This document shows, one piece after another, positions 1-15,136 of a stretch of 15,136 nt of DNA (its first letter is position 1; the number at the start of each line of letters is the position of its first letter). A model generated the notes under the pieces. That model saw only the letters and a list, made by a program, of their open reading frames with translations. It ran no database searches and was not told the origin of the DNA. This DNA comes from Candidatus Saccharimonadota bacterium (GTDB lineage: Bacteria > Patescibacteriota > Saccharimonadia > Saccharimonadales > Saccharimonadaceae). Location of the stretch: the NCBI GenBank assembly GCA_020428185.1, contig JAGQNH010000013.1, positions 1 through 15,136 on the forward strand, written 5' to 3'. The position numbers were made by a program, and so were the translations under genes.

Positions 1-1012
1 CAATATCCACACCAAACCACAAGCCGACCCCACGAACCTCCGTCACACCACGACCAATCAGTTTTTCGAGGCCGTATTGCATTTCTTTGCCTCTCTCAAC
101 CGCATTTACTTGAAACTTCCCAGTACTGATAAGTTCGATAGCAGCGCGTCCTACTGCACACGCAAGTGGATTCCCGCCAAACGTACTTCCGTGCTCACCT
201 GGGCCAATTACATCCATAATATCGCGATTTGCGCAGACAGCAGAAACAGGCAAAATTCCTCCTCCAAGTGCCTTGCCAAGCACATACATATCCGGTTCTA
301 CATTCTCGCGATCACAGGCAAACGTTTCACCCGTACGACCAAACCCAGATTGAATTTCATCAGCAATCATGAGCACATTATTTTCAGTACATATTCGCCT
401 CACTTCATGCAAATAACCATCATTGGGAATAATAACCCCTGCCTCGCCTTGAATCGGCTCGAGTAATACCGCAGATGTGTTTTCATCGATTGCATTTTCT
501 ATCGCAGAAGCATCTCCAAACGGAACGCGTCGAAATCCAGGTGCATACGGTCCAAAACCGTTCCTCGCTGATTCGTCATCAGAAAACCCAACTATCGTCG
601 TCGTGCGTCCGTGAAAATTATCGCCCATGACAATAATATTGGCCTTATTCGTCTCGACACCTTTCACTTCCTGCCCCCACTTACGTGCAAGCTTGATAGC
701 AGTCTCAACCGCTTCTGCACCAGTGTTCATTGGCAATACCGCTTCCTTGCCAGTTAATTCTCCAAGTTCCTGACAAAATGGCTCCAGCTGATCTTGCTTA
801 AACGCACGTGCTGTTAGCGTCAATTTATCTAGCTGATTTTTTGCCGCTGCGACAAGCCTGGGATTTCTATGCCCAAAATTATTTGCCGAATAACCAGCGA
901 GGCAATCTAGATACCACGCGCCATTCACATCACATACCCACGCACGTTTCCCATATTCAATCGGAACATCATTTAATTCGTGATAGTTATTTGCAGACCA
1001 TTTTTCTGTCAT
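1..1012 (-). CDS. rocD: Ornithine aminotransferase (ornithine--oxo-acid transaminase), C-terminus cut by window edge
   Basis: A PLP-dependent class III aminotransferase that would move the delta-amino group of ornithine to 2-oxoglutarate, giving glutamate semialdehyde (arginine/ornithine breakdown or proline supply), in the cytosol. I translated 337 codons from ATG at 1012. The frame is open at base 1, so about 60 of the usual 400 or so residues are missing. Family hallmarks are the N-terminal substrate segment around GYSANNFGHRNP (residues 40-51), NTGAEAVETAIKLARKWG (96-113), the PLP-ring segment FHGR (133-136), LLEPIQGEAGV (183-193), the PLP-nitrogen Asp218 in ADEIQSGFGRTG (217-228) and the Schiff-base Lys247 in VLGKALGGG. 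NTGAEAVETAIK is specific enough to favour ornithine over acetylornithine or GABA aminotransferases. The start is supported by AGAGGG just upstream. The gene lies head-to-tail 84 bases downstream of the surface locus but has its own leader. Confidence 0.93.
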   Translation of the reverse strand, partial: MTEKWSANNYHELNDVPIEYGKRAWVCDVNGAWYLDCLAGYSANNFGHRNPRLVAAAKNQLDKLTLTARAFKQDQLEPFCQELGELTGKEAVLPMNTGAEAVETAIKLARKWGQEVKGVETNKANIIVMGDNFHGRTTTIVGFSDDESARNGFGPYAPGFRRVPFGDASAIENAIDENTSAVLLEPIQGEAGVIIPNDGYLHEVRRICTENNVLMIADEIQSGFGRTGETFACDRENVEPDMYVLGKALGGGILPVSAVCANRDIMDVIGPGEHGSTFGGNPLACAVGRAAIELISTGKFQVNAVERGKEMQYGLEKLIGRGVTEVRGVGLWFGVDI

Positions 1013-1047
1013 ATTCCCTCTTTCTGCCACCCTTACGTATTAGTATA
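1013..1047 (-). promoter_or_regulatory. Leader, ribosome binding site and possible -10 box of rocD
   Basis: On the minus strand AGAGGG lies about 4 bases before the ATG at 1012, a usable Shine-Dalgarno site. A TATACT box at 1047-1042 is a candidate -10 and would give a leader of roughly 23 bases. No good -35 box is visible. A perfect 10-bp palindrome, CTATATATAG, sits just upstream at 1074-1083. The ribosome site is fairly convincing; the -10 is only a guess. Confidence 0.4.
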
Positions 1048-1096: not shown

Positions 1097-2245
1097 CTAC
1101 GTATGTCGACGGCGCGGACGCACTCTATGATTAATATGAATCGAACGCTCAAAATAATCACCCGCCCAAAATCCAATCACCATTGCAACTGCAAGAAAAT
1201 ATGTTGGGACGGGCGAATCAAACCAAGACAAATTCATATTACTACTCACATACCCTACAAAATCCTTGGGCTTATCCGGACCTGATACATCAATTGTCGC
1301 CTGCATATATGCCTGCTTACCGTTACTATCAAAGGCCTGCAGCTCAATCGTGTACTGCCCCTTTGCCGCATATTTCTTTGTAGCAGTGAAATAGCCCGGC
1401 TTATTGACGCTCTTTACTGTGTCTACAGAGCCATCACCCCAATTAATTGTCACGGCATATGGAGAGCTACCTCCCCACACCAATACACCAATTGTCGTCT
1501 CGCCATCCGTACTTACATGACGCTGCATGCAGATGACCGCTACTCGAACATCTCTCGATATCGGCATATCGGTACCCGAATTGTAGTCACTACATGATGT
1601 CACATATGATTTATTGCACGCCTCAGATGTTGGTATTTGTACACACGATTCGGGAGGTGTCGGCGTCACTCCAGGAACGATAATCGGATGAATCGGCACG
1701 TTTGTTGCGCCTGTATTTGGAGGTGCAACGTATATCACCTTCACACTTGGTGTAATTGGTCCAGCTTGGTTCATGCCATTATAGTTCAATGCTGTCAGTT
1801 TATTAACGCCACCAAATAGCTGAATTTTCAGCTGAAATGTCGATTCTGTCGTGCATAATGTCGAACCAACAATCGTATTGTTACTATATACAACCACCTC
1901 TGACGTAATAGAACACGTTCCTTCGACATCTATTATCGCCTTTTTAGAAACGGTGCCATTTTTGGGCGACGTAATTACAGCTCCTTGAGTCGGCGGTTCC
2001 GCAGGTACCGTCACACCTACACTGACATTCGTATCAGCAGCCGAAATATCATACCCCACAAACACAAAAAATCCCGTAATAACAAGCAGTATCAGCAATA
2101 TTGGATACGAGGTATGGTGGCGATGTACGACATGTCCTGTGTGGACATGATGCAATAGCCTCAACTTGGCGCCAACAGGATGGGCCACCTTCTTGATCTT
2201 TTGGTGAGCAGTCTTGGCCTTAGTTTTTGTTTTCTTCCGTATCAT
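1097..2245 (-). CDS. Two-membrane-segment surface protein with Ig-like and PKD domains
   Basis: No named family recognised; 382 residues. Residues 1-46 are a strongly basic tail, Lys-rich and then His-rich (seven His in 32-44). A membrane segment follows at about 48-65 (PILLILLVITGFFVFVGY). An Ig-like beta domain spans about 82-172 and a Pro-rich linker 174-200. A Cys-containing segment (Cys201, 210, 218, 239) precedes a PKD-type domain at about 250-322, recognised by WGDG (269-272) and the Y-x-x-x-G-x-Y-x-I-x-L strand (292-302). A second membrane segment lies near 348-361, and the end is basic (RPRRRHT). By the positive-inside rule both ends are cytoplasmic and the Ig/PKD part is a long external loop. 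It is the last gene of the minus-strand surface operon. Its ATG lies 26 bases inside the preceding gene and has no visible Shine-Dalgarno site, so translation is probably coupled. Role inferred: anchoring or scaffold protein for the surface proteins encoded next door. Confidence 0.85.
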   Translation of the reverse strand: MIRKKTKTKAKTAHQKIKKVAHPVGAKLRLLHHVHTGHVVHRHHTSYPILLILLVITGFFVFVGYDISAADTNVSVGVTVPAEPPTQGAVITSPKNGTVSKKAIIDVEGTCSITSEVVVYSNNTIVGSTLCTTESTFQLKIQLFGGVNKLTALNYNGMNQAGPITPSVKVIYVAPPNTGATNVPIHPIIVPGVTPTPPESCVQIPTSEACNKSYVTSCSDYNSGTDMPISRDVRVAVICMQRHVSTDGETTIGVLVWGGSSPYAVTINWGDGSVDTVKSVNKPGYFTATKKYAAKGQYTIELQAFDSNGKQAYMQATIDVSGPDKPKDFVGYVSSNMNLSWFDSPVPTYFLAVAMVIGFWAGDYFERSIHINHRVRPRRRHT

Positions 2246-3218
2246 TTTTTTGTTGTGCGTTTTTGTATTTTTTGATTACTCTCTTATTGTACGCTATCTG
2301 TATCCTTCTGAGAATGAATATCATTAATGAGACTACTAGTAGTATTGTCACGATTAGCTTATATGGTATAACCCAAAAAGACGTACTCGCCATAATCACT
2401 TGACCCTGCGATCCATAACCTAGCGTGACCGTTGCGGTATAGTGGCCAATCATATAGCCGTCATATACGTTATCGAAGCGCCGGATACTACCTGGCAATA
2501 CATTGGACTGAGCTTTGTTTACTGGTATCGAAGCCACGACCGATCCAAACATATTTTTTAACACTATGGTGCCAAATGGCTTGATATGAATATTGCCTGT
2601 ATTCTCTACGCGAGTAATAAAACTTACTGGGCTATTTTCGAAAAAGTTCGACTCTTTGCCATTATTTACCGCATAAAACGAAGCCACAGATGCGTCCTCT
2701 TCGATGATACCGTCAACTTTCACGAGCAGAAGTGTACCGGCGCTTGCCGTCAATCCGACGCCCGTGCGCTTGATGCTCGTATCAGATCCAGAAAAATCCA
2801 ATACACCATAGTGGCCACCCGGCTCCGCATCCATGGGCACAACCACCCTGAACTCCACAGTTTTATTTTTGCGTGCATCTAGGTGGAACTCAGATACAGA
2901 TGGAGTGACCCACGTGCGAACAGAAATTTGTTTCGGAAGCCGAGAGTCACGCAAAACCTTTGGAGAGCCCGTCTCATCCTTCGAGGTAAAATCATTGACC
3001 GATACTGCATAATCCAGATCTCCAGCCGTGATATTTGTCACTTCTACGGTCAATGTATAGATACCGCCGCGCTCAGCATTCAACTCAATAATTGACGGGC
3101 TCAACTGAATACCCTGCGCAGCTCCTGTCGATTGCGCATAGGAATCTACCGGAAGCAACGACACAGAAGCTAATATAGCTATAATCAAGATCGTTGCGCG
3201 ATTATATATTCTTTGCAT
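2220..3218 (-). CDS. Membrane-anchored DUF916/WxLIP-like surface protein (first copy)
   Basis: 332 residues. A signal peptide covers about 1-28 (hydrophobic 9-23, cut near SYA|QS). Two beta-sandwich domains follow. The first (about 36-142) opens with an LSP strand and ends in VPMDAEPGGHYGVL (127-140). The second (about 165-283) holds VENTGNIHIKPFG (204-216). A single membrane helix lies at about 285-303 and a Lys-rich cytoplasmic tail at 304-332. This order (signal, two sandwiches, C-terminal helix, basic tail) is that of the WxL-interacting proteins (DUF916 + DUF3324) of Firmicutes, which bind peptidoglycan and hold WxL proteins; the match is by architecture, not close sequence. It is paralogous to 4957-5856, which carries VPQNAEPGGRYIS at the equivalent place. 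It lies between a secreted beta protein (84 bases upstream) and the PKD protein (26-base overlap downstream), so an operon is likely. Confidence 0.85.
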   Translation of the reverse strand: MQRIYNRATILIIAILASVSLLPVDSYAQSTGAAQGIQLSPSIIELNAERGGIYTLTVEVTNITAGDLDYAVSVNDFTSKDETGSPKVLRDSRLPKQISVRTWVTPSVSEFHLDARKNKTVEFRVVVPMDAEPGGHYGVLDFSGSDTSIKRTGVGLTASAGTLLLVKVDGIIEEDASVASFYAVNNGKESNFFENSPVSFITRVENTGNIHIKPFGTIVLKNMFGSVVASIPVNKAQSNVLPGSIRRFDNVYDGYMIGHYTATVTLGYGSQGQVIMASTSFWVIPYKLIVTILLVVSLMIFILRRIQIAYNKRVIKKYKNAQQKNDTEENKN

Positions 3219-3302: not shown

Positions 3303-4376
3303 CTAGAAGTTTGCAGTAGCGTCGTAGTGAAGATTTGTCGTATAGACGCCAGGTGCCGTCACACCAGCGATATTCGCTATATAGCTAACCGTAAATGTAT
3401 TGGCATTTGTAGGAGCACTCACACTAGCGATGGTATTTCCAGATACAAACCTGAATGAATCAGCCGTATTGTAGTTCGTCGCTGCTGTTGCGGTTCCCGT
3501 GCCGCTGACGTTTGAGCCTACAGATGGGGTGGCATTGCTCACAAGATTGATACCGAACTGACTTGTACCAACCGAAGATGCAGCGTTCGCAGCCATAGCC
3601 GTAATGGTGTTACTTCCTGAAGTTAGTGTCGGTCCGGTTACCGTGACAGTATACCCATGCTCACCATTTGTCGATGCGGCAAATACTGAAGTGCCAGTTG
3701 CCGTTGCAGTAGTCGATGCAGTACCGAGATCCACAGTAGACCCTGCGACAGTAGCGCAGTTTTGGCCTGTGATACTAGTGCCGGTACAAAATGTAAGAGC
3801 CTCGTTGACATCTAGCACGACTTGAATTTGAGCAGAGGTACTAAGTGCAGTGTCCGATGAGTCTACTGCTGTTGTCCACGCAGCATCAGAGTACGTAGTG
3901 ATTTTGGCATAAAACGTCGTATTGGTTGCGGTAGGGTTGTGCACTCCACCCCACTGTATACTGACTGAGCCAGATGGATTGGTAGCGTTGGCTGCATTAA
4001 CAATACGAAGAGACCCGGCCGAAGCGGTATTGACTGTCCATCCAGACCCGGCGCCGACACCACTAGGCTGTACAGCGAGTGTCGATGCAGAAGCAGAAAA
4101 ACCAGCAGGCGTAGAACAAGCGCCCTCTAGTGACGTACAAAACTGCACACCGACAGACTTGATAGCTGTACCAGTAGTCGGAAGGGCGTCGCTCGTCAAT
4201 GTATACGTCACTCCAGACGCATCACCTACGGATGTCGAAAGTGTGATTTTGCGATTTGTAATTGTACCGGCATTTGCAAATGGCGCTTGCAAAAAAGGTG
4301 CTGCAGAGAGCACAAATGCAAAAACCAACCCTCGGATGGCCTGCCTACGCGAATTTTTACCGTTATTATATTTCAT
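3303..4376 (-). CDS. Secreted Thr/Ser/Ala-rich beta-sandwich surface protein, WxL-like C-terminus
   Basis: 357 residues, not a family I can name. The signal peptide runs 1-36: NSRR (8-11), a hydrophobic core at 17-30, and cleavage after ANA (34-36). The mature part has few charges, is rich in T/S/A/G/V, and shows alternating beta-strand patterning throughout. Two close cysteine pairs (Cys80/87 and Cys197/207) could form disulfides. The last strand pair, with AGVTAPGVYTTNL (337-349), resembles the AGxYxxxLTW closing strand of WxL domains, with Tyr replacing Trp. There is no membrane helix and no LPXTG, so retention would need a partner; the adjacent DUF916-like protein is the obvious candidate. 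It is the first gene of the minus-strand surface operon and diverges from 4421-4960 across only 44 bases. Likely an abundant coat or adhesion protein; the function is inferred from context alone. Confidence 0.85.
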   Translation of the reverse strand: MKYNNGKNSRRQAIRGLVFAFVLSAAPFLQAPFANAGTITNRKITLSTSVGDASGVTYTLTSDALPTTGTAIKSVGVQFCTSLEGACSTPAGFSASASTLAVQPSGVGAGSGWTVNTASAGSLRIVNAANATNPSGSVSIQWGGVHNPTATNTTFYAKITTYSDAAWTTAVDSSDTALSTSAQIQVVLDVNEALTFCTGTSITGQNCATVAGSTVDLGTASTTATATGTSVFAASTNGEHGYTVTVTGPTLTSGSNTITAMAANAASSVGTSQFGINLVSNATPSVGSNVSGTGTATAATNYNTADSFRFVSGNTIASVSAPTNANTFTVSYIANIAGVTAPGVYTTNLHYDATANF

Positions 4377-4420: not shown

Positions 4421-4960
4421 ATGAAGAAAACCATAGCCTTTATCGGAGTAAGTTTCGTTGCAATATTTGCATACGTACCTCTCGTGCATGCGTCTTCGTA
4501 CAACCAAGGCAAATACAACGAAAACGTACCATATGGGTCCGCAACCTACATAGCCATTAGTACCGATGGCGACGTTTCGCTTGCCGTCACACCCACCTCA
4601 TCGGGTTCACAAGTGACTGGCACGAGCACTGTCACCGTTACTTCTACTGATGTCGTCGGTCACAAACTCTATCTGCGTTCCGAACCAAGTACCGACATGG
4701 ACAACCTTGGCGATGTTTTACCAACTTCCGGCAATGTCTCTCCTGCCCCTTTGGCAATAAATACATGGGGGTACAACACCGATGGTTCCAACAATTTCGT
4801 TGGCTCTTCGCTCACCGACACACTCATCCGCTCGCTCACTGGCCCAGCAATGTATGGCGATATCACCACTATCACTTACGGTGTCAAGGTAGACCTCGCG
4901 AAACCAGCGGGCAATTACACCACATCGATCGTGTACACTGCAGTACCTGATATTGATTAG
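4421..4960 (+). CDS. Small secreted beta-sandwich protein, WxL-like
   Basis: 179 residues. The signal peptide is about 1-25 (MKKTIAF start, hydrophobic 5-21, cleavage at VHA|SS). The mature domain of about 155 residues is predicted all-beta, without cysteine or further membrane helix. It contains NTWGYNTDGSNNFVG (114-128) and closes with YGVKVDLAKPAGNYTTSIVY (153-172). The latter resembles the last strands of WxL domains (AGxYxxxLTW), again with Tyr for Trp. I associate this WGYNxD plus PAGxYT layout with Patescibacteria surface proteins, but cannot confirm it by search. It faces 4957-5856 and their stop codons overlap by four bases, so this pair forms a second secreted-protein/anchor set. 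It is probably exported by Sec and held on the wall by the DUF916-like neighbours; precise function unknown. Confidence 0.85.
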   Translation: MKKTIAFIGVSFVAIFAYVPLVHASSYNQGKYNENVPYGSATYIAISTDGDVSLAVTPTSSGSQVTGTSTVTVTSTDVVGHKLYLRSEPSTDMDNLGDVLPTSGNVSPAPLAINTWGYNTDGSNNFVGSSLTDTLIRSLTGPAMYGDITTITYGVKVDLAKPAGNYTTSIVYTAVPDID

Positions 4961-5856
4961 GTAGCCATTTTCGTTCGTTGTCGCAGTTTCCAGACTACAT
5001 ACGATATTCCCGCAATGACTATGACAGTTAGCGAAGCAAGCGGCACATACGATTGCTTGGGCAAAAAGTAGATTATAAATTCCCTCTTAGCCGCAGGCGC
5101 ATCGCCCAGCCCAACGGTATATACGGCTCGATACACGCCTACATATTTCAATACTGGCATCTGCGCCGAGATAGCTCGCGTGGTGTGCGGCAGTACGAGC
5201 GAATCACCACTCCGCGAGGCAACCTCGCTATTATCAAATATGCTCCTCACACTGACTGTGTATTTACTACGAAAATGCGCCGTGCCGGTATTCGCGACAA
5301 CCAACTTCCATGGTTCATAACCGTCAAACACGACCGGGCTTTTGAGTGATTTCAGGCTGCCAATTCGCGTTACGTCGCCCCTTACGGTCAAATATAGCAG
5401 CGACGCGATTCGTTGCTCGGTGTGGATTTCGCCCGGTGCAGTTTGTACATCGCTCGATGCAAAGAGACTTATATATCGCCCGCCCGGTTCGGCATTTTGC
5501 GGCACGTCTACAACATACGACACCACATGAGTCTTACCAGGATCAATATCTACCTCAGGAGAATCAAACGACACCCACTTCGACACATCAGACTGCGCGT
5601 CAAACGAATAATCGTATTGCTGATTCACCACCCCAAACTCTTCGGCGTCCAAGCGCACGGTCATTTGCGTATCTGAATAATTTGTAAGTTGGAGTTTGCG
5701 ACTGATTGTCTCACTCGGCGAAACTGACAATTCTGTTCGTAAGGGAGCGAGCGCTAGACCCTTTATATCTCTTATGGCGCATACCGTCTGGGCAGGAGCA
5801 AGTAAAAAACATAGAATTGTCACCAATGTAGCAGCCATGAGCTTTGTTCTCTTCAT
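4957..5856 (-). CDS. Membrane-anchored DUF916/WxLIP-like surface protein (second copy)
   Basis: 299 residues from ATG at 5856. The frame stays open upstream to a GTG at 5892, but starting there would put a polar stretch (ADQYDADMCEI) ahead of the signal peptide, so the internal ATG is preferred. No Shine-Dalgarno site precedes either. Signal peptide about 1-27 (KRTK, then hydrophobic 8-20, cut after VCA). First beta domain about 33-133, ending with VPQNAEPGGRYIS (118-130). Second domain about 150-265, with VVANTGTAHFRSKYTVSV (186-203). Membrane helix about 270-288 and a short basic tail (KLRQRTK). Domain order and the PGG motif make it a paralogue of 2220-3218, and hence a candidate wall-binding holder for a secreted partner. 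Its stop overlaps that of the plus-strand gene 4421-4960 by four bases, tail to tail, leaving no room for a terminator between them. Confidence 0.84.
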   Translation of the reverse strand: MKRTKLMAATLVTILCFLLAPAQTVCAIRDIKGLALAPLRTELSVSPSETISRKLQLTNYSDTQMTVRLDAEEFGVVNQQYDYSFDAQSDVSKWVSFDSPEVDIDPGKTHVVSYVVDVPQNAEPGGRYISLFASSDVQTAPGEIHTEQRIASLLYLTVRGDVTRIGSLKSLKSPVVFDGYEPWKLVVANTGTAHFRSKYTVSVRSIFDNSEVASRSGDSLVLPHTTRAISAQMPVLKYVGVYRAVYTVGLGDAPAAKREFIIYFLPKQSYVPLASLTVIVIAGISYVVWKLRQRTKMAT

Positions 5857-6055
5857 AATTTCGCACATATCAGCATCATATTGGTCCGCCACACATACAA
5901 GCTTACCCCACTATAGCTTTATGCACTATCATAATATGAGATTTATTTATTGATTCGTTCATTCACCATATAAAAGCAAGTGTTGTTGCGTGTTTTATCA
6001 ATTTTGGCTACATTCTAACCTGCCTTTCGGTTCAGTAAAGAATTTGACCAAGAAA
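5857..6055. other. Intergenic junction between surface locus and tail-fibre-like region
   Basis: 199 bases, AT-rich, with no gene that I can support. On the minus strand several TATAAT-like boxes (TATTAT 5936-5931, TATAGT 5915-5910) could serve the gene at 4957-5856, none with a convincing -35. A weak hairpin (GCAA-6-TTGC followed by TTTT, about 5970-5990) downstream of the 6056-6703 gene is the only terminator candidate, and its four-base stem is poor. No tRNA, integrase site or obvious attachment core was seen. Confidence 0.5.
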
Positions 6056-6703
6056 TTAATTACCTGCAATCTGTATACTGGCAGATGTATAATAATGCCA
6101 ACCGTTGACTCCACTAGCTGCTAGACCACCAGATGTTCCTGGATTATCTTTGGTCGCAATCATCATATGGTCTGTCAGGGACGATACAACTTGCTGCGTG
6201 AAGCCCCCTGCCAAAGTAGTACAATAGCCGGTGCTGTAGTGAGACTGACCGAAGAAAAAAATAACAACCGAGTTTGAATAACCAGACATCGAGCTAGCAG
6301 ATATAACAGACGTTGTACTAGCATCGCCACCAGCATATGCACTGTTATATATCGGATTACTCACATGTTGACCTGAAATAACAACAGCGGAGAGAGGGCA
6401 ATTGTAGAGCCACGTCCCTGAAGTATGATTGGTCGCCGTGGCGACTGTATAGTACATTCGATGGGTATACCAAGTCGAGCCACCCGAACCGATTGCTGTC
6501 CAGGTCGGAACAGTTCCCGAAGCCGTAGGAATCGTCATGGCATCGCCAGTACCGCCGTTGCATTCTGAGGCATACAAAATAATGAGATCGCCCACGCTAT
6601 GACTTGGTAATGTCAATGTTCCACCGTTACCATTCGCAGTAGCACCCTTTAATATAGGTGGTGGAGATTGTAATGAAAGTCCCATGCCAATTCCGCTAAA
6701 CAT
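6056..6703 (-). CDS. Phage-tail-like beta protein, translationally coupled to the giant fibre gene
   Basis: 215 residues from ATG at 6703; the TAATG arrangement makes the ATG share one base with the stop of the giant gene. The frame is open further upstream to 6739, but that would only add residues overlapping the fibre gene, and coupling explains the chosen start. AAGGA lies 11 bases upstream, inside the fibre gene. The protein has no signal peptide or membrane helix and looks all-beta. LPSHSVGDLIILYASE (33-47) is a strand pattern common in phage tail and tail-associated proteins (LPxxxxGDLIIL). Cysteines lie at 48, 102 and 161. It is rich in G/S/T/Y, as receptor-contact surfaces often are. 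Its position just after the fibre matches where phages place a fibre tip or fibre assembly protein. Exact function unknown; a distal receptor-binding partner of the fibre is my inference. Confidence 0.82.
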   Translation of the reverse strand: MFSGIGMGLSLQSPPPILKGATANGNGGTLTLPSHSVGDLIILYASECNGGTGDAMTIPTASGTVPTWTAIGSGGSTWYTHRMYYTVATATNHTSGTWLYNCPLSAVVISGQHVSNPIYNSAYAGGDASTTSVISASSMSGYSNSVVIFFFGQSHYSTGYCTTLAGGFTQQVVSSLTDHMMIATKDNPGTSGGLAASGVNGWHYYTSASIQIAGN

Positions 6704-9700
6704 TATGGCGTAAATCCTTGCGTACAGGTACCATACCAACTGGTTCCATCACTAGTGAAAAAGAGTATATCCATCTTCCCTGCAGTTGCCGTAATCGTAG
6801 GGGCGCCAGCCGCATTCCATTTCACACCTGTGAATGTTGCGGTGCCGTTGCCCGTACTTGCCGCTTGTTTAAGCATCAACGTAAATGATTTGCCTGCCGT
6901 AGCTGTAGGCATAGTAAACGTACATGCGGTCGAGGCAGTCAATGTAGCCGTGAGTACTGTGCCGCTTGTGATAGCAAGCGTGTAGCTCGTTGTCACGGTT
7001 CCGATAGCCACAACACCCTCGGTATAGCCATTGACTGTCGGGCTTGTTAAAGTCTTGTTTGTAAGCGTTTGCGCGTCCGTGGTGCCAACAATCGTACCGC
7101 TTGGAGCCGTGACTGCAGAAAGCACGCCAGACGTTAGCTTTGCGATACCAGAACCAGTTGCACGTTTGAGCGTCTTTCCGCCCGTGCCAGAAAAGAGCGC
7201 CACTTCACTATCGACAGATGATGCGGTATTCGTAGAAGCATCACCACCACCCACTGCCGCCCATGTGCCGTCTCCACGAAGGTATGTACTAGCGCTTGGT
7301 GTACCGGTGACAGCAGGAACGGCGGTGACTGATGAGAGGACGGGGTTGCCGTTGGCCTTAATAACGCCAGTACCTTTACCTACCAAGAGAAGATCAATAT
7401 TTGTATCTGTACCGTCCACAGAAATAATCGGCCCATTTCCGGTATACGTACCCTTGAAAGTTGGGTAATTGACTGTAGACACACCTGATGAGAAGAACTT
7501 GCCAACGTAATTACCCTGTCCGTCCTGCATGCCGGCCCATTTAGTGGTCCCTCGGAACTGAAGATTAACAGCGAGTTGTGCATCAGCGCCGGTCGGACCG
7601 ATAACAACAGGATTTCCTGTGGCAGAGTTACTAATAGCTAGGTAGTTAACTGCGCTGGCAGCAGCAGGGTTATATATACTTATATTGCCATTCGAGTCAT
7701 TGACATAGGTTATTTTCGGACTAGTGAGGGTTTTGTTGGTGAGGGTACTGGTTGAAGAGGTAGTTGGGACACTAACACCACCCGACGTAATAGTCCCAGT
7801 AACTGTCAAATCCCCCGGCAAGGAAGAGTTACCTGACGCATCATTTATTGAGGCGGTTTTTCGGGCTGCCCACCCAGAAACCCAGTTGTCTGGCGAGGAA
7901 TTAATCTGCAACCCATTCTCAGCGTTAACGTAAAGAAATTCACCCGTCTGACCTGTCGCGTACAACGACGATTCGCCAACATTGATGATGATCTGATTGC
8001 CTGTTGTTGGCCGAATTTCATCGGTATTGATGTAATTAGAGACCGTTGGACTTGTGAGGGTTTTGTTCGTGAGAGTCTGCGCGCCAGTCAAGGTCACCAG
8101 AGACTGCATATTTGTCTTCAAGTTGGCGATACTATATCCGGTAGATGACCCTCCGGCGATTGCCTGCACTGCCGCATCGACAACCTCTTGTCCGTAGCTA
8201 ATCTGTTCGACACCTACGCAATCGAGATAATACACATTACCGTTTGTGGTCGTTGGGTCATTGATAATAAATGCTTCAAACGCCCCCTTGTCGTCTGGAC
8301 AAATTCCAAAACAGTCCATATCTTGCCAGCCGGCTGCCATACTAGAGTTGGATATACTGTATGTACCTGCTGCACGATTTGTATACGTACCGCCAGCCTG
8401 CGTGGTCCAAAACCGCATGAAGATTCGCACATAGCCAACAGTCATATTGTTTGCTGCGTCTGGCTTGATCTTTACCTTCACACGGAACGCATCGCCCGGC
8501 CTACAGACAAATCGTTTTTTGCCCGATTGCACAGGCGAGAAGTACGGCCCCTGCCAAGTGCTACTAGTTGCTGTCCATGTGAGCGAGTACGTACCCTGAA
8601 ACGCCTCGGTATTCGTATAGGTAGGTGTCACCGCTCCGAATCCGTATCGAGTGACAGTCGTATCCTCGAAATTAGGATCAGGAATCAAATTCGACGACAT
8701 GGCAGCAAGCTCGATATTGGTAGTAGAAGTAGCGAGATCCGTCGTTAAGTTCGTAACAGCCGACTGCGGAATATTACTAAATGTATTCGATGAGCCGCTT
8801 AGTGTCTTGTTAGTCAGGGTGTCTGTTGAAGAAATACTAGGGACAGCCACGCCACCAACATAGACCGTCGGTGAGTAAATTGCACCGTTAAAGACTACGT
8901 TGTCATTGGCGTAAGAGTAGTAAAAAACCTCGCTCTTTACATTGTTGTTGTTGCGGTAGAAGCCAATAGTGTCGGCCACCTCTCCACTAGCAAAGGCAGG
9001 AGAGCCGTCACCGTTGTAGTACATACCGCCACCATACTGAGTAGACTGACCGACCTCGACATACCCCGTACCCTGACTGGCACCGTAGAGTCGGATTCCT
9101 GACGACCCAGTATCATCAGAAATTACGTCTATTATCGTGCTTGTACCGTTGTCGACAGTCAGATTACCTGTCACCGTTGTATTACCGGTTATCGCTGGTG
9201 ATGTCAGGGTTTTGTTGGTGAGGGTTTGAGTGCCAGAGATTGTTGCGACTTCTATATTGTTTGCCTTAACGACACCCGTACCTTTAGATGACAGCTTGAG
9301 ATCGATATTAGTATCACCGCCATTTGCAGAAATAGTTGGAGCGACAGCATTGGTACCATACAAATCACCGCCATTACGTGTAAGGAATTGCGCAGCGCCA
9401 AGTTGACTGCCTGTATTAACAGCATACAAAGTGACGATAGCCAACCCATTAGTGCCTGCCTGAGCAAAGTTGGTCAGCGTATAGCGAATCTTTGATACAG
9501 TGTTTCCCCATGTACCACCAAGGGTAGACCATAGTCCAGAACTCACTAACTTCCATACTTGTGCCGAAGCTTCATTGGTAACTGTATGTATAGTGCGCCA
9601 TGTTGAAGCGGTATAATCCCACACCTCAATGGTGACATCATTTGCACGTGCAGCCGGAGACATATTAATACCTGCGATGAAGCCCCACCTTAGATACGAC

Positions 9701-12700
9701 CCACTAGGTAGTGTTACCTCTGCTACCACTACATCTCCAGAGGCCGCTATAGTCATATTTACAGAGTCAAGCCCTGCTCGTAACGCAGTTGCCGGAGTAT
9801 TGTATGTATACGTAGGAGCTCCGCCATTGTAGGTCATAGTAATAGACCCTCCGCGTAAATCGGCGTATACCAAATCATTTGCCATACCTTCGACTACCAT
9901 TGCGTCGGACGATTGGTTAGGGTCGGTGCTAATTCTCTGCCCTGCACCACCGATATTACCCGAGCTGACAGCTCTTGACGTAAGTACACCAACAGGAGTT
10001 CCACTAATAGTTGGGCTGGTCAACGTTTTGTTAGTTAGCGTTTGCGTACCCGTCAAAGTCACATACGACGCCGCAGCCGTACCGCCTAGTTTGTCGGAGT
10101 CGCCAGCACTAATCTTTTGCCATGCCCCAAGAGCACCACTTTCTTCGTAACGTATTGAAATATACGGGTTGCTCACGTTGCGCGGGAACGCCAATTGCAT
10201 ACCGTAGCTACTGTATGCATAGCCCTCACCCAACCCTATAAACGCGCTGTAGTACTGAGACGCCCCATTGGTGCCGGGACCGTTCGTGCTCCCTTGCACG
10301 TATCGCCACCCAAAATCAATCGTAGATGCAGCACCCTGTGCGTCGAATGATGTCCGGGTTGTGTGCGCATCGCCCATATTATTGAACAAACTGGTCGGCT
10401 TGATGAGAGTCACGTCTGAGACTGCAGTATTCAATTGAGCGAAGGTTGTTGTAAGAGTATTATTCGCGAGTGAAATAGTTTTGTTGGTCAATGTCTGCGT
10501 ACCAGTAGTGGTGACTACATCAGCACCGGCAACCTGCACCAAAGAGTTGGTAATCTTGAGCCGCTCTATGCCATTGACATAAAAATGATGGCCAGACCCA
10601 TTCGGTACCTGATATTCCAGCTTGGAATCAGAAATTCCCAAACCAAAATGGTTGCTGCCACTGCCATTGTCGTATAGTCGCAATTTGAGATTACCCTGAG
10701 TTCCGACGGTATTGTTGCCATACGTGCCACCGAGGTTGATGTTGGCGGGGGTAGCTGTGGCGGTCTGAGTGGATGTACCGATAGCCAGATTGTCGTCTGT
10801 CTTGAGCGTATTTGCTGCGCTACGGTAGAGGTTGGTATCGTTGCCGAAATAAATACCGCCCGCAGCCGTGGTAGTGGTAGTGGAGCCTATATTAAGAATA
10901 CCATCGGAGCGAGCAGTAATCCCTGCACCCAGAGTGATATTTCGATTGGCATCCCAGTCATAAGGATACTCGGTATCCGCACCGCCGCCTTGATTTGCGG
11001 GCCTGTTAGTTAGTCCCTTTATCGAATTGAGGTAAATAGGTCGACTGTTTGTAGTAGTGATAGTCAGGCGTAGATACGTATCACCACCCACACCCGTCAA
11101 CGGAAAGGCCGCGAACGTCGCATTGGCAGTCGTAGTAGAGGTATGTCGGGTCGTCCAGTTGGTACCGTCTGTACCTGATTCAACTGTGACTTCGTTACTT
11201 GGAGCCGGACTACCATAGCCGAAGCCAATCATTATCCAAGATAGGCCACTATACGACAAATTACCGGAATTCCACGTCCATCGTACGGCAGTAGTTGTTG
11301 CTCCGTCGGCGAGCGTATACGCACCAGACTCCTTGCCGGCGAAAACGATTGTCGGATTAGTAGCACTCGACCAAGAACCGCTTGCATATGTTTCATAGGT
11401 ACCCGTTCCAATCCACCTACCAAATCGGAGAATATCGTGCCACAAGTACTTACTAAAAGCATTGAATGCAGGGTATGCACCAATCGAAACGTCATTGGAT
11501 ATTGCATAGTTCTTGTTGGTCAAGCTTGCCGAAGGAACAGTAAGTTGATTCGGCTCAGGAAGCTGAACCGTACCAGTAATTGTCGCTCCATTAATCGTCG
11601 GTGTTGTGAGCGTTTTGTTGGTGAGTGTCTGCGCGTCGGTAGTACCAACAATCGTGCCACTTGGTGCCGTGACGACACTCAGTACACCCGACGTCAGTTT
11701 GGCAATACCACTGCCTGTGGCGCGCTTGAGTAACTTGCCTGTCGTACCAGAGAATACAGCCACTTCGCTATCTACCGACGTTGCAGTATTGGTCGATGCA
11801 TCTCCACTACCCGTGCTATCTACGTAACTCTTCACCGCTGCCGAAGTTGGAATAGTCGTGTCGTTGTTGTTGGCTGCTATTGTTTCTGCTGCCGTCACAA
11901 CTGCACTGGCGTCGAGATTTGATACGGCAATATTTGATATAGTATTGCTCGACGCAGAAATAGTTTTGTTGGTGAGAGTTTGTGTACCAGATATAGTAAC
12001 GATATCGACACCATTTGCTTGTACTGTGCCTGTGCCCTTTGGTAAAAGGTTGAGATTATGATTGGTGTCCACGCCACGTGCCTCAAGAGTAGGAGTCATT
12101 CCAGTGGAAACATAAATGCCCAGAGTACCAGTGCCTTTTGGCTGCATAATAGTGCTGATATTCGTGCTTGCTCCTACCGCATATAAAACCGGATTGCCAC
12201 CTGCAGAATTTGCCACCATAAAATAGTCATTTGCCGAAGCTGTGGCGCTAAACGCCATCATGGTGGCTCCATTGATGTCTTTAATCGTATCTATGCTCGG
12301 AGTCGTGAGGGTTTTATTGGTGAGGGTTTGCGTACCATCTACGGTTGCAGCGCTTTTTGATATATTGGACGGCGTGTTCACTCTCAAATTTGCCAAGGTG
12401 ATTATATTCTTGTCGCCATCCCATGAATACGGATATTCCAACTCCTGACCGCCACCCTGTGCACCCGTGCGGCTGCTTAGCGCCTTGATTGAATTCACAT
12501 CAATAGGACGAGCATTAGCAGTAGTAATTGTCAATCTCGCCCAACTACACGAACCAAGCCCAACAGTATTCTGCAATAAGACCGGTTGGTTCTGGCCAGT
12601 TACCTGAGACGTGTGGTATGTCGTCCAGTTTGTACCATCCGTAGATCCTTCGATAGTAAAATTGTTTGTTGGAGCAGTACCGACATAGCCAAGGTGGATC

Positions 12701-15136
12701 ATCCACCACCGTACATATCCCGCTGTGATATTCGCGCTATTCCACGTCCATCGAGCGCCAGTAGTCGTGGTTCCGTCGGCTACGCGTACAGCAGTGTATT
12801 CGTTACCTGCAAATACCGAATTATTTAATGTCTGACTTGACCACGTAGAACCATCATATGTCTCGAATGTAGGATCACCCCACCATCTACTAAATCGTAA
12901 TACGTCATGCCATAAATATTTTGGCGCCGGAGAAAATGCCGGATATCGCCCCCATGTCTGATCAGTCATATACGCCGCATTTGTCTGCGAAGCATCAGTA
13001 GCACCCACACCAATAAGTGAATCAATTATCGCCGTATTGATAGTTGGGCTTGTGAACGTTTTGTTGGTGAGAGTTTGAGTGCCGGTTGTAGTTACTGCTG
13101 ACACTCCTCCGATTGTCACATCAGATCCACTTATCGACATTCGTTCGCTGCCACCTACGAAGAAGCGATGGACAGCGCCAGTATTTGCTTGGTATTCAAG
13201 CATAGAACCAGACACGCCAAAACCATAGCCCGTGTAGAGTTGAATCTTTTGATTGGCATTACTACCTGGCGAATTCGTGCCGTATGTCTGATCAAAGGTA
13301 ATTTTAGGAGGATTCGATGAACCAGTTGGAGATACCGCCGAACCAACAGAGATGCCAGTGGCACTATTAATCACAGGTGACGTGATTGTTTTGTTCGTAA
13401 GAGTTTGGGTGCCGTCCACAGTCACCACTTCAACACCATTTGCCTTAACAACACCCGAACCCTTAGTCGTCAGCAACATGTCGACATTCGTGTCGGTGCC
13501 ATTCGCGAAAAGTGTCGGTCCAGAACCAGTTGCGCTTCCTGTAAGTCTAAAATAGTTTACAGATGATGCAGTATATCCAACCTGCAGCGCCGCAGTACCA
13601 CCAGGAGAAAGATGGATAAGGCCTGTACCCTTCGTGCTTAAATTAAGAGGAATATCGGTATCAGAACCAGCTGTCTCGACAAACGGACCAGAACCGGCAG
13701 CCTTATTGCGGATATTGACATAGTTTGCTGCACTTGCAGTAGTAGTAAGTCCAAGAACAGCCACGCCATTGCTGTCGAGAATTTGATTAATCTTTGGTGA
13801 CGTCAGCGTCTTATTCGTAAGAGTCTGAGTGCCGGTGAGAGTGACCAAAGATTGGACGGCGGTCTTCATAGTAGCAAGTGAATTCCACGTACTAGATCCG
13901 CCGTTTATACCCTGATAAACATTGTCTATGATGTCTTGAGTATCGGTAACATTCAACCACAATAGATTGTCGACATAATAAATATCGCCAATCCCATTAT
14001 TGAGGCTTCCGGCGAGTCTTACGTTCAATCGGTCCCGACCGGCAGGCACAGTGTAGGTATGAGTTAGCTTCGTCCAGCCACTCGTACTTGGCGCGACTCC
14101 GGTACTATTGATGAAGGCGTAGCCATTTACCCCTGTGGAGTCGGTAGACCACGCTTGGATATAAAAGAGTGTATTAGTGACAGCATTCGAAGCATGGGCT
14201 CGAATATATACTTCCATGTAAAATTTGTCGCCTGGGCGAACCCGAAGCGAGTCGATGTCTGGAATATAATCGCCATCCTTAGTACGTAGGAAGGTTAGCG
14301 TGGGGTATGACGATCCAGTAATCGTCATCTTCAGCGATTGGGTACCCGAAACTGCCTGCTCATTACTGACTTCTCCTGTCCAGTTGGAGCCAAAGCCGTT
14401 GGCAGCCCACAATTCAGGGACCGAACAGCTTGGATCGGAAGCTATATTAGGCAATCCGGACGCCTTGAGATCGATGAACTTCTGCGCAGTGTCGGCAGCA
14501 GTCTGAGCAGTGGTGATGTCAGTGGTTAGATTGGTAACTGCCGATTGAGGAATATTACTTAGGGTATTAGAAGCGCCAGAGATAGTTTTGTTCGTCAGAG
14601 TTTGCGTACCGGTGGTCGTGACGACATCGACACCATTTGCCTGGACTGTACCCGTACCCTTGGAGACAATATTGGCATTAATGGAGCTGTCAGTACCCGC
14701 AGCAGTAAGCGTCACTGCGCCGCCTGCACTACCCCCTTGAATGTTCCAATAATTAGCATTTACACCAGCGGTTCGTGCGAACTTTGCAATCCAGCCAGAC
14801 GCAGAATCAGAAACACCAACATACCCAGATCCTCTAGGCTTGGCAATTAAATTCACGTCTGAATCGGTGCTTTCTGGCCTCAGTACTACACCACCTCCGA
14901 TGGCAAACGACCCGGTGGCGGCATTGGTTACATGCAAATAGCTCACAGCACTAGCAGTGGCAACTAGTGCTATAGAGGTGTTTCCGTTGGTGTCATTAAT
15001 CTGATTAATTCTAGGACTTGTCAGCGTCTTATTCGTGAGAGTTTGCGTGCCAGAAATAGTTGCGACTTCAACGCCATTGGCTTGTACAACACCGGCACCT
15101 TTGGTTTGTAGATCTAGTCCAACATTTGCATCGGCG
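6703..15136 (-). CDS. Giant modular tail-fibre-like protein, at least 2810 residues, N-terminus outside window
   Basis: One frame runs without a stop from the window edge (first whole codon 15133-15135) to TAA at 6703-6705, giving 2810 codons. No true start is visible: a GTG at 14946 lies inside a repeat module and the frame continues upstream with the same repeats. The protein is a chain of phage-fibre modules: linkers of the type GTQTLTNKTLTSPTI (15 copies); GTDTNIDLLL...KGTGVVKANG strand units before many of them; two jelly-roll domains of CBM type and two of discoidin type, plus a third distant one; a knob-like domain; GTPSASTYLRGDGTW; and a C-terminal domain typical of phage fibres. It is Thr/Ser/Gly/Asn-rich, with few Cys or charged residues and no membrane segment or LPXTG. 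Such fibres usually form long trimers that bind host-surface glycans. It may be a prophage fibre or a cell-owned adhesin derived from one. It is followed by the coupled gene 6056-6703. Confidence 0.93.
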   Translation of the reverse strand, partial: ADANVGLDLQTKGAGVVQANGVEVATISGTQTLTNKTLTSPRINQINDTNGNTSIALVATASAVSYLHVTNAATGSFAIGGGVVLRPESTDSDVNLIAKPRGSGYVGVSDSASGWIAKFARTAGVNANYWNIQGGSAGGAVTLTAAGTDSSINANIVSKGTGTVQANGVDVVTTTGTQTLTNKTISGASNTLSNIPQSAVTNLTTDITTAQTAADTAQKFIDLKASGLPNIASDPSCSVPELWAANGFGSNWTGEVSNEQAVSGTQSLKMTITGSSYPTLTFLRTKDGDYIPDIDSLRVRPGDKFYMEVYIRAHASNAVTNTLFYIQAWSTDSTGVNGYAFINSTGVAPSTSGWTKLTHTYTVPAGRDRLNVRLAGSLNNGIGDIYYVDNLLWLNVTDTQDIIDNVYQGINGGSSTWNSLATMKTAVQSLVTLTGTQTLTNKTLTSPKINQILDSNGVAVLGLTTTASAANYVNIRNKAAGSGPFVETAGSDTDIPLNLSTKGTGLIHLSPGGTAALQVGYTASSVNYFRLTGSATGSGPTLFANGTDTNVDMLLTTKGSGVVKANGVEVVTVDGTQTLTNKTITSPVINSATGISVGSAVSPTGSSNPPKITFDQTYGTNSPGSNANQKIQLYTGYGFGVSGSMLEYQANTGAVHRFFVGGSERMSISGSDVTIGGVSAVTTTGTQTLTNKTFTSPTINTAIIDSLIGVGATDASQTNAAYMTDQTWGRYPAFSPAPKYLWHDVLRFSRWWGDPTFETYDGSTWSSQTLNNSVFAGNEYTAVRVADGTTTTGARWTWNSANITAGYVRWWMIHLGYVGTAPTNNFTIEGSTDGTNWTTYHTSQVTGQNQPVLLQNTVGLGSCSWARLTITTANARPIDVNSIKALSSRTGAQGGGQELEYPYSWDGDKNIITLANLRVNTPSNISKSAATVDGTQTLTNKTLTTPSIDTIKDINGATMMAFSATASANDYFMVANSAGGNPVLYAVGASTNISTIMQPKGTGTLGIYVSTGMTPTLEARGVDTNHNLNLLPKGTGTVQANGVDIVTISGTQTLTNKTISASSNTISNIAVSNLDASAVVTAAETIAANNNDTTIPTSAAVKSYVDSTGSGDASTNTATSVDSEVAVFSGTTGKLLKRATGSGIAKLTSGVLSVVTAPSGTIVGTTDAQTLTNKTLTTPTINGATITGTVQLPEPNQLTVPSASLTNKNYAISNDVSIGAYPAFNAFSKYLWHDILRFGRWIGTGTYETYASGSWSSATNPTIVFAGKESGAYTLADGATTTAVRWTWNSGNLSYSGLSWIMIGFGYGSPAPSNEVTVESGTDGTNWTTRHTSTTTANATFAAFPLTGVGGDTYLRLTITTTNSRPIYLNSIKGLTNRPANQGGGADTEYPYDWDANRNITLGAGITARSDGILNIGSTTTTTAAGGIYFGNDTNLYRSAANTLKTDDNLAIGTSTQTATATPANINLGGTYGNNTVGTQGNLKLRLYDNGSGSNHFGLGISDSKLEYQVPNGSGHHFYVNGIERLKITNSLVQVAGADVVTTTGTQTLTNKTISLANNTLTTTFAQLNTAVSDVTLIKPTSLFNNMGDAHTTRTSFDAQGAASTIDFGWRYVQGSTNGPGTNGASQYYSAFIGLGEGYAYSSYGMQLAFPRNVSNPYISIRYEESGALGAWQKISAGDSDKLGGTAAASYVTLTGTQTLTNKTLTSPTISGTPVGVLTSRAVSSGNIGGAGQRISTDPNQSSDAMVVEGMANDLVYADLRGGSITMTYNGGAPTYTYNTPATALRAGLDSVNMTIAASGDVVVAEVTLPSGSYLRWGFIAGINMSPAARANDVTIEVWDYTASTWRTIHTVTNEASAQVWKLVSSGLWSTLGGTWGNTVSKIRYTLTNFAQAGTNGLAIVTLYAVNTGSQLGAAQFLTRNGGDLYGTNAVAPTISANGGDTNIDLKLSSKGTGVVKANNIEVATISGTQTLTNKTLTSPAITGNTTVTGNLTVDNGTSTIIDVISDDTGSSGIRLYGASQGTGYVEVGQSTQYGGGMYYNGDGSPAFASGEVADTIGFYRNNNNVKSEVFYYSYANDNVVFNGAIYSPTVYVGGVAVPSISSTDTLTNKTLSGSSNTFSNIPQSAVTNLTTDLATSTTNIELAAMSSNLIPDPNFEDTTVTRYGFGAVTPTYTNTEAFQGTYSLTWTATSSTWQGPYFSPVQSGKKRFVCRPGDAFRVKVKIKPDAANNMTVGYVRIFMRFWTTQAGGTYTNRAAGTYSISNSSMAAGWQDMDCFGICPDDKGAFEAFIINDPTTTNGNVYYLDCVGVEQISYGQEVVDAAVQAIAGGSSTGYSIANLKTNMQSLVTLTGAQTLTNKTLTSPTVSNYINTDEIRPTTGNQIIINVGESSLYATGQTGEFLYVNAENGLQINSSPDNWVSGWAARKTASINDASGNSSLPGDLTVTGTITSGGVSVPTTSSTSTLTNKTLTSPKITYVNDSNGNISIYNPAAASAVNYLAISNSATGNPVVIGPTGADAQLAVNLQFRGTTKWAGMQDGQGNYVGKFFSSGVSTVNYPTFKGTYTGNGPIISVDGTDTNIDLLLVGKGTGVIKANGNPVLSSVTAVPAVTGTPSASTYLRGDGTWAAVGGGDASTNTASSVDSEVALFSGTGGKTLKRATGSGIAKLTSGVLSAVTAPSGTIVGTTDAQTLTNKTLTSPTVNGYTEGVVAIGTVTTSYTLAITSGTVLTATLTASTACTFTMPTATAGKSFTLMLKQAASTGNGTATFTGVKWNAAGAPTITATAGKMDILFFTSDGTSWYGTCTQGFTP
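6706..7014 (-). other. C-terminal fibre domain
   Basis: The last 103 residues of the giant protein have the pattern of a common phage-fibre C-terminus. A strand segment SYTLAITSGTVLTATL is followed by SFTLMLKQ, then VKWNAAGAPTIT and finally a GKMDILFFTSDGTSWYG closing strand. Known members of this type end many tail fibres and appendage proteins, and the ending argues that the stop at 6703 is the natural one and not a truncation. Confidence 0.75.
7051..7244 (-). repeat. Duplicated GDAST...TLTNKT block, C-terminal copy
   Basis: This encodes about 64 residues from GDASTNTASSVDSEVALFSG to TLTNKT, including ATGSGIAKLTSGVL and TIVGTTDAQ. It is almost identical in protein, and equal in length (194 bases), to 11611-11804. 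The DNA has diverged mainly at synonymous positions. Just upstream (about 7255-7300) is TPSASTYLRGDGTW, a motif very common in phage structural proteins. Confidence 0.9.
8199..8697 (-). other. CBM-like jelly-roll domain B of the giant fibre
   Basis: About 166 residues, opening with the classical NLIPDPNFEDT and containing CRPGDAFRVKVKIKPDA, MAAGWQDMDCFGI and the closing NVYYLDCVGV strand. NLIPxPxFE...GW...YxD is the usual signature of CBM-like jelly rolls on phage fibres, where they bind sugars. It shares flanking sequences with copy A at 13945-14466. It has three cysteines, unusual for this protein. Confidence 0.65.
9418..9885 (-). other. Third, divergent jelly-roll domain of the giant fibre
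   Basis: About 155 residues from YADLRGGSITMTYNG to AIVTLYAVN. YLRWGFIAGIN, VTIEVWDYTASTWRTIHTVT and KIRYTLTNFAQAG line up loosely with the Trp-rich, TDGTNW and RLTIT strands of the two discoidin-like domains. It is followed by the NGGDLYG fibre motif. I infer a distant relative of the same fold; sequence similarity alone is weak. Confidence 0.4.
10102..10400 (-). other. Knob-like receptor-binding domain of the giant fibre
   Basis: About 100 residues with FGWRYVQGSTNGPG, SQYYSAFIGLGEGY, YGMQLAFPRN and PYISIRYEESGALGAWQKIS. The ending, aromatic strand then G-x-W-x-KI(S), is the usual close of pyocin-knob-like domains in phage fibres. It is followed by DSDKLGGTAAASYV, a short unit also common in fibres. 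Confidence 0.45.
10495..10750 (-). repeat. HFYVNGIER fibre unit, copy B
   Basis: Second copy of the unit at 13075-13310, with the same strand order: INLGGTYG, KLRLYDNGSGSNHFGLGI, LEYQVPNG, HHFYVNGIERLKI, then DVVTTTGTQ before the linker. It lies directly after discoidin-like domain B and its short GIYFGNDTNLYRS hinge, whereas copy A precedes discoidin-like domain A. Module order is therefore shuffled between the two halves. Confidence 0.6.
10926..11475 (-). other. Discoidin-like domain B of the giant fibre
   Basis: About 183 residues from YPAFNAFSKYLWHDILRF to YPYDWDANRN, with AVRWTWNSGNL, GTDGTNWTTRHTS and LRLTITTTNSRPIYLNSIKG. The start and end motifs match domain A, while the middle is more divergent, as expected if the outer loops have adapted to different ligands. 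Confidence 0.6.
11611..11804 (-). repeat. Duplicated GDAST...TLTNKT block, central copy
   Basis: Same protein block as 7051-7244: GDASTNTATSVDSEVAVFSG, ATGSGIAKLTSGVL and TIVGTTDAQTLTNKT, with no insertion or deletion between copies. Over the 90 bases compared by eye (11641-11730 against 7081-7170) about 24 differ, yet only about one residue changes. Confidence 0.9.
12391..12945 (-). other. Discoidin-like domain A of the giant fibre
   Basis: About 185 residues from YPAFSPAPKYLWHDVLRF to YPYSWDGDKN. Internal marks are GARWTWNSANI, FTIEGSTDGTNWTTYHTS and ARLTITTANARPIDVNSIKA. The order Trp-rich strands, S-x-DGTNW, then ARLTIT fits an F5/8 type C (discoidin) jelly roll, a fold that commonly binds glycans. 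It is a clear paralogue of 10926-11475. Confidence 0.6.
13075..13310 (-). repeat. RFFVGGSER fibre unit, copy A
   Basis: A strand unit of about 78 residues: KITFDQTYGTNSPGSN, KIQLYTGYGFGV, LEYQANTGAVHRFFVGGSER and a closing V(S)AVTTTGTQ. It pairs with 10495-10750 (INLGGTYGNNTVGTQ, LEYQVPNGSGHHFYVNGIER). In each case a TLTNKT linker follows. Units with HxFYVNGxER are frequent in phage fibres. Confidence 0.6.
13945..14466 (-). other. CBM-like jelly-roll domain A of the giant fibre
   Basis: About 174 residues from SGLPNIASDPSCSVPELWA to DIYYVDNLLWLNVT. The pattern is a damaged or altered N-terminal strand, VRPGDKFYMEVYIRA in the middle, TSGWTKLTHTYTVPAG, and a closing YYVDNL strand. It resembles CBM4/9-type carbohydrate-binding domains found in fibres and glycan-active enzymes. 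The flanks (SNIPQSAVTNLTTD before, GGSST...LVTLTG after) also occur around copy B at 8199-8697, so a larger unit was duplicated. Confidence 0.6.

Follow-up and report, generated by a model that had tools for sequence, protein, structure and literature searches.

The window analysed here, a stretch of 15,136 nucleotides that makes up the entire contig C10 of a Candidatus Saccharimonadota assembly (G000; 700,561 bp in 146 contigs, 75.5% complete), raises the question of whether a giant tail-fibre-like gene in a patescibacterial genome is the fibre gene of a prophage or encodes an adhesin recruited from phage by an epibiont, the two possibilities named in a sequence-only reading of the locus. The giant gene (Table 1) is a single stop-free frame of 2810 codons on the minus strand, open at the contig edge, and it cannot be extended within the contig because the window already spans all of it. 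The proposal that the frame passes the GTG at 14946 and reaches the edge, making the protein larger than the window can hold, was borne out: the frame runs on upstream of this codon and holds a further linker copy at 15026-15048, so the GTG is internal and not a credible start. Linkers of the TQTLTNKT type give 11 regular-expression matches in the giant protein, and exact matches to the linker DNA number 10 within the gene and 19 across the assembly; as the reversed control pattern gave 0, chance does not explain their abundance. The length, which had been called unusual, is indeed extreme but not unique, since a relative (G009) has a complete frame of 2775 aa beginning with the N-terminal domain described below, and a called protein of 2920 aa with the same start (P0164) is present in the protein database. 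Six contigs of the assembly (C2, C3, C10, C12, C31 and C33) terminate inside such linker-bearing or NT genes, a pattern that points to repeated sequence or to differences between strains of the population at these places. At two loci of relatives (L033, 4003-9335; L035, 9353-15224) the giant frame stops and linker-bearing sequence goes on in another frame; decay, assembly error or variable expression could each be the cause.

Table 1. Features of the window, in order of position.
Feature	Position	Strand	Remarks
Class-III aminotransferase, chromosomal flank	2..1030	-	Aminotran_3, E 1.2e-104
Membrane protein, cassette iii	1097..2245	-	Pfam PKD_4, E 0.0038, below cut-off
Surface protein, cassette i	2220..3218	-	Pfam WxLIP_PGBD, E 0.0024, below cut-off
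Secreted surface protein, cassette ii	3303..4376	-	Signal peptide by eye
Secreted SYNQGKYNENVPYG protein, cassette iv	4421..4960	+	Signal peptide by eye
Surface protein, cassette v	4957..5892	-	Pfam fn3_5, E 1e-4, below cut-off
Second tail-like gene	6056..6703	-	215 aa; ATG overlaps stop codon of giant gene (TAATG)
Giant tail-fibre-like gene	6703..15135	-	At least 2810 aa; 5' end off contig
C-terminal head domain	6706..7005	-	Last 100 residues of giant protein
Module common to Gordonia and Mycobacterium phage proteins	9274..9990	-	Residues 1716-1954
F5/8C-like module, copy 2	11011..11568	-	Shares 47% identity with copy 1
F5/8C (CBM32)-like jelly-roll module, copy 1	12481..13038	-	Weak Pfam match, E 0.0044, below cut-off
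CBM4_9-like module	13936..14604	-	Weak Pfam match, E 0.0089, below cut-off

Between the linkers, the giant protein consists of CBM32/F5-8C and CBM4_9-like jelly rolls. The first F5/8C-like copy is also backed by a predicted structure (mean pLDDT 64, with blocks of 52-90 over residues 51-186 and low values before) and by its fold matches in the PDB, of which 25 reached E<=0.001, many of them CBM32 or F5/8C proteins; the giant protein compared with the PDB by sequence gave 0 matches at E<=0.01. The jelly-roll modules appear to be sugar-binding-like. Several parts of the protein show kinship with tail-fibre and minor tail proteins, in module sequence or in fold: residues 254-402 (13930-14376) match the minor tail protein of Mycobacterium phage Tortellini, residues 733-1411 match Gordonia phage Bantam in two pieces that enclose both F5/8C-like copies, and the module at residues 1716-1954 matches phrog_33513 (function unannotated) with an E value of 3.4e-24. 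Inspected by eye, the head domain is of one type with the domain that ends the short members of the family, and its fold is judged from a related domain in one of them (P0002, encoded by the same-family genome G022). The second tail-like gene, read from an upstream-extended start as 227 aa, matches the minor tail protein family phrog_13352 (E 7.8e-17), and all 34 phage records that match it are from Mycobacterium phages.

Phages of Gordonia and Mycobacterium are over-represented among phage records. They account for 47 of the 52 phage records that match the giant protein, in raw counts that include many near-duplicates. For two linker-rich control proteins, picked by the analyst, the ten commonest organism names included neither Gordonia nor Mycobacterium phages. 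Of twelve rows listed for the copy on contig C3, six, among which are five from Mycobacterium phages, match the C-terminal head domain and not a receptor module, and the giant relative P0163 gives a mixed picture, with 75 of 192 phage records from Mycobacterium or Gordonia phages, 41 from Pectobacterium, 19 from Vibrio and the remainder from others.

Where the start of a family member is visible, it often carries a conserved N-terminal domain (NT) with the pattern RLP..D.G.WG.I. Searching G000 and 99 relatives with an alignment of 19 NT starts found the domain in 44 of these 100 genomes, with up to 20 matches per genome. The shortest frames with NT have fewer than 100 residues, some of them lying at contig edges, and the longest have about 2800. 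A short form of 233-237 residues, present in several genera, consists of NT plus the head domain and has 957 relatives in the protein database at E<=0.001, of which 120 were listed. Among 50 long relatives of the window protein, 15 have a strict NT start and the rest start otherwise or are cut. Within G000, NT starts lie on C12, on C48 and at the edge of C31, and linker-bearing fragments lie on four contigs (C2, C3, C12 and C33). The AlphaFold model of P0002 has pLDDT below 50 for residues 1-106, so no claim is made about the fold of NT; the Foldseek TM-scores for this protein are low. Directly upstream of the 2775-residue NT giant of G009 lie three type IV pilin-like genes, by eye (L034, 1009-2676). 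A genome of another class (G223, contig C31, around 7962-10847) has a 3643-residue frame with module matches and without an NT start, and this genome has no TatC match.

A Sec signal or a wall anchor, which the sequence-only reading had named as the mark of a cellular adhesin, was not seen at those termini of the proteins that are available. The NT starts of relatives show neither by eye, two examples have no hydrophobic stretch by calculation, the copy on C12 begins MPTPQRLPIVNSDDGVWGDIIRQYLEKEHF with no hydrophobic signal, and no LPXTG-like C-terminal end was seen by eye in the window giant. What accompanies the family instead is tatC, together with a separate small protein that has a Tat-like motif (A1).

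One rival reading makes the giant protein a fibre from a prophage or from a tail particle that the cell has domesticated, such as a tailocin or contractile injection system. In its favour, the linkers, the modules and the 227-residue neighbour all match phage tail families, and NT occurs in two viral contigs, one with tail sheath and tape-measure genes (L078) and one with a gene that matches tail spike families (L079). Prophages have also been reported in the group: PMC12424758 describes, for Nanosynbacter, strain-specific prophages that encode tail and capsid proteins, and PMC10031880 describes CPR genomes that carry phage genes for sheath, portal and terminase. Against a prophage, the phage portal family PF04860, which was the only virion family searched genome-wide, matched 2 of the 100 genomes, one of them over the cut-off, and did not match G000, a count that holds for one portal family and for an assembly 75.5% complete. 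Head, packaging or tail-machine genes were seen neither in the window nor around the mapped copies. The neighbours are housekeeping- and surface-protein-like: copies in G000 adjoin tatC (C12) and, by eye, genes for EF-Tu (C3) and for grpE and hrcA (C12), and copies in relatives adjoin rpoBC-like (G007) and dnaK-like (G005) genes, which places the fragments at chromosomal loci. NT is also rare in the viral collection, where the alignment scan found a single IMG/VR locus (L078), two pattern scans found one (L079) and none, and a query with NT of type A found 0 loci; in the phage collection the type-A query found one record, over residues 102-136 only, leaving the start uncovered. With no match to the one portal family searched and no structural genes seen nearby, a prophage origin of the window gene is unlikely, and we regard the prophage or tail-particle explanation for the fibre as very unlikely. 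Since NT does occur in viruses, though rarely, its ancestry is likely to lie in phage. Thus the phage-fibre-like character noticed at the outset stands, the prophage option is not supported, and an epibiont adhesin derived from phage is the best reading; with fair confidence, the evidence favours a family of cell-encoded, phage-derived fibres.

The N-terminus of the window gene lies off the contig, so NT is not seen there, and its presence has to be judged from synteny and modules. All five cassette proteins have counterparts in G059, in identical order and at 40-60% identity, and they are similar to those of G044 and G067. In these three relatives the tail-like genes and the cassette follow A1 and NT, which occupy the position that the giant gene takes in the window. 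The window giant has the same modules as the C12 gene and as two giants that bear NT, P0163 and P0164. Supported by this synteny, the missing N-terminus is predicted to carry NT, and the window gene fits a cell-encoded family of the Saccharimonadales. That the giant is instead a modular protein without NT which merely sits beside the cassette would agree with the loss of its N-terminus from the contig and with the minority of long relatives that have a strict NT start, others differing or being cut, but it would sit poorly with both the shared modules and the synteny with NT genes, and we consider it unlikely. A join between C10 and C12 was considered but is not supported by an end overlap: the two contigs have compatible orientation and share a stretch of 117 bases at 89% identity, yet this stretch belongs to an internal module. 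The end of C10 overlaps neither C12 nor C31, both of which bear NT starts, and C10 was joined to no contig.

The window contains no tRNA genes. Cassette protein v is presumably DUF916-like. The secreted cassette protein at 4421-4960 of the window and two secreted proteins of relatives (L011, 6085-6642; L063, 9104-9541) have repeated [FY]G-type motifs after a signal peptide recognized by eye, and these motifs look similar to the tails of A1 proteins. In several genera a conserved pair of methyltransferase-like and glycosyltransferase-like genes, by eye, is positioned between the tail-like genes and the surface cassette (L038, 5433-6792; L039, 6214-7554; L049, 1695-3031).

A1 is a protein of about 56-83 residues with an R-x-x-F-L motif and one hydrophobic stretch. 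Most type-A A1 proteins end in a C-terminal tail like GFGSRKFGV, and a second form, which adjoins tatC, has a YGxxxYGG-like tail. Proteins exported by Tat carry the motif S/T-R-R-x-F-L-K ahead of a hydrophobic stretch. In 13 aligned rows of A1 the first arginine, the phenylalanine and the leucine are invariant, and the second position of the pair is arginine in 6 of 35 distinct sequences (RR), lysine in 22 (RK) and another residue in 7. The Pfam TAT_signal model matched two of three NT-linked A1 proteins scanned, both below the cut-off, and did not match the tatC-linked A1. A database search with one A1 query returned 40 relatives at E<=0.01, the query included, all of them unnamed or hypothetical. 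Among the NT starts listed, A1 lies upstream of 11 of 15 of type A, and also upstream of the C12 gene; none was found beside two large NT genes, that of 2775 aa in G009 and that of 1755 aa in G007, although A1 is present elsewhere in both genomes. The tail of A1 follows the type of the NT that it adjoins: in 24 distinct pairs of A1-NT neighbours, with NT types assigned by script and tail classes counted by eye, a K[FY]G tail marks 13 of the 15 pairs with NT of type A and 0 of the 9 with NT of type B (p 4e-5). Such matching is expected if the A1 tail and NT touch, and co-inheritance of neighbours would also yield it. In G070, the gene immediately before an NT gene encodes a TatA-like protein (L069, 4279-4587; PF02416, E 4.6e-9) whose A1-like tail ends in GYGQQGYGEKANS.

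NT and A1 are coupled to TatA and TatC in the genomes that encode them. Among the 100 genomes including G000, TatC is present in 43 over the curated cut-off, which was the criterion used (45 at E<=0.001), TatA in 42, A1 in 44 and NT in 44. NT and TatC are both present in 42 genomes, NT only in 2, TatC only in 1 and neither in 55 (p 1e-24), which is agreement in 97; the exceptions are G053 and G088, with NT and no TatC, and G008, with TatC and A1 and no NT. All 43 genomes with TatC have A1, and G069 has A1 without TatC. An earlier single-sequence NT query, which found NT in 35 of the 100 genomes, gave corresponding counts of 34/1/9/56, with G033 kept in; the match in that genome spans residues 44-117 only and is absent from the alignment search. 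Because the genomes share ancestry, the p-values overstate independence; with one genome per family the counts are 14/1/0/21 (p 4e-9). An artefact of genome size was rejected as the cause, as the coupling holds in each of four size strata (built from rounded table values) and in the one-per-family counts. As a control, one cassette protein is present in 72 of the 100 genomes and is not coupled to TatC (34/38/9/19, p 0.19). In a sample of 286 genomes from across the phylum, NT-start matches were found in 14 (G107 and G128 being counted on short matches of 23 to 37 positions), all 14 of which have TatC, and 10 more genomes, all outside the class, have TatC and no NT; seven genomes with matches that begin at model position 26 or later, in the modules, were not counted as NT, and none of these has a TatC match.

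Gene order is in keeping with co-occurrence. In 33 of the 44 genomes with A1, tatC is found within 1 kb of it, and an NT start lies within 400 bp downstream of at least 24 of 63 A1 hits, a lower bound because only part of the NT matches was entered; 13 of the 63, on the same incomplete NT rows, have neither tatC nor NT nearby. The tandem order tatC-A1-NT was found in seven genomes of six families (G006, G056, G074, G095, G099 and, from two families outside the class, G301 and G367), and contig C12 of G000 has the order tatC (confirmed by Pfam), A1, cassette, A1, NT giant.

Phage fibres fold in the cytoplasm, and folded proteins are no cargo for the Sec pathway. If A1 served as a signal-bearing adaptor or anchor on a Tat-linked route, a folded fibre could still be exported, and the co-occurrence of these genes would be explained. 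Probably, then, the family consists of phage-derived host-binding fibres, built from phage-tail parts with jelly-roll, sugar-binding-like modules on a repetitive stalk. The fibre would fold in the cytoplasm, NT would dock on the C-terminal FG or YG tail of the one-helix A1 protein with its Tat-like R-x-x-F-L motif, and the complex of NT and A1 would be exported or anchored via the TatA/TatC system that travels with these genes, placing the fibre on the cell surface, where it may attach to the outside of a host bacterium; the host is most likely an actinobacterium. The prevalence of RK over RR disfavours the role of a simple Tat substrate for A1, which could alternatively be a subunit of the translocase or only an anchor. 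A cargo of about 300 kDa would be extreme for Tat.

Alternatively, the adhesin, cellular and derived from phage, might be tied to Tat only indirectly and leave the cell by another route (such as a type IV pilus or T4SS), with A1 as a membrane anchor or translocase component and not as a Tat substrate. The full RR motif is missing from most A1 proteins, gene coupling is silent on direction, and the TatA-like protein of G070 combines an A1-like tail with a position directly upstream of an NT gene, all of which this explanation accommodates; it accounts less readily for the near-perfect co-occurrence with both TatA and TatC and for the tatC-A1-NT tandem in genomes of six families, two of them outside the class, and it seems to us rather unlikely. 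Docking of NT on A1 with Tat-linked export or anchoring remains the preferred reading. A wider proposal is offered tentatively, as a possibility that we would not yet call probable: the Saccharimonadia may possess a secretion and display system in which Tat, a tiny signal-anchor adaptor and phage-derived NT export pre-folded, swappable receptor-binding fibres, and by which an episymbiont chooses actinobacterial hosts through modules of the phages of those hosts.

A search of the literature in PubMed Central found no report linking Tat, tail fibres and Saccharibacteria, and the coupling to Tat and A1 is the new and most testable part of this work. Among the essential envelope functions of a cultivated epibiont, PMC10633639 lists pili, a T4SS and proteins with glycan-binding domains, and phage-like fibres are not named in that section. 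PMC6031116 reports a genome in which a Tat system occurs with four genes predicted to carry a Tat motif, two of these being of unknown function, and PMC9166423 records TatA and TatC in Saccharimonadia and two other classes. NT fibres are candidate cargo for this patchy Tat system of the Saccharimonadia, and if Tat exports such fibres, the known cargo of the pathway would be extended. The NT family provides concrete, testable candidates for host-binding fibres, and the modules shared with Gordonia and Mycobacterium phages give a hint of host range; the source bacterium, which probably lives on other bacteria, may hold its host with virus-style fibres.

Compared with known systems, the giant protein shares jelly-roll modules with minor tail proteins of Gordonia and Mycobacterium phages (Bantam gene 40, Tortellini) at 28-38% identity in the rows listed, but it is much longer, its gene lies on a cellular contig by surface-protein genes with no virion genes seen, and its family has the Tat/A1 linkage. 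Phage tail fibres with TLTNKT linkers (phrog_38058; pelagiphages and cyanophages) have linker repeats and a fibre-like architecture in common with it, whereas the two linker-rich controls lack Gordonia and Mycobacterium phages among the names listed. The adaptor domain of T4 gp9 and CBA120 TSP4 differs in that no baseplate was seen near the NT or giant genes. Loci for DUF916/WxLIP surface proteins are known from Gram-positive bacteria; the cassette of the window resembles them, with weak Pfam matches below the cut-off, but unlike such loci it includes one tested protein that is more widely spread than NT and uncoupled to TatC. Proteins that are exported by Tat as hitchhikers, or held by a signal anchor, depend on a Tat-like motif and one hydrophobic stretch on the partner of a signal-less protein. 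A1, with its Tat-like motif and single hydrophobic stretch beside the signal-less NT protein, resembles such partners; unlike the Tat hitchhikers, A1 mostly has RK rather than RR, its partner is the N-terminal domain of a phage fibre, and the two form a recurrent pair beside tatC.
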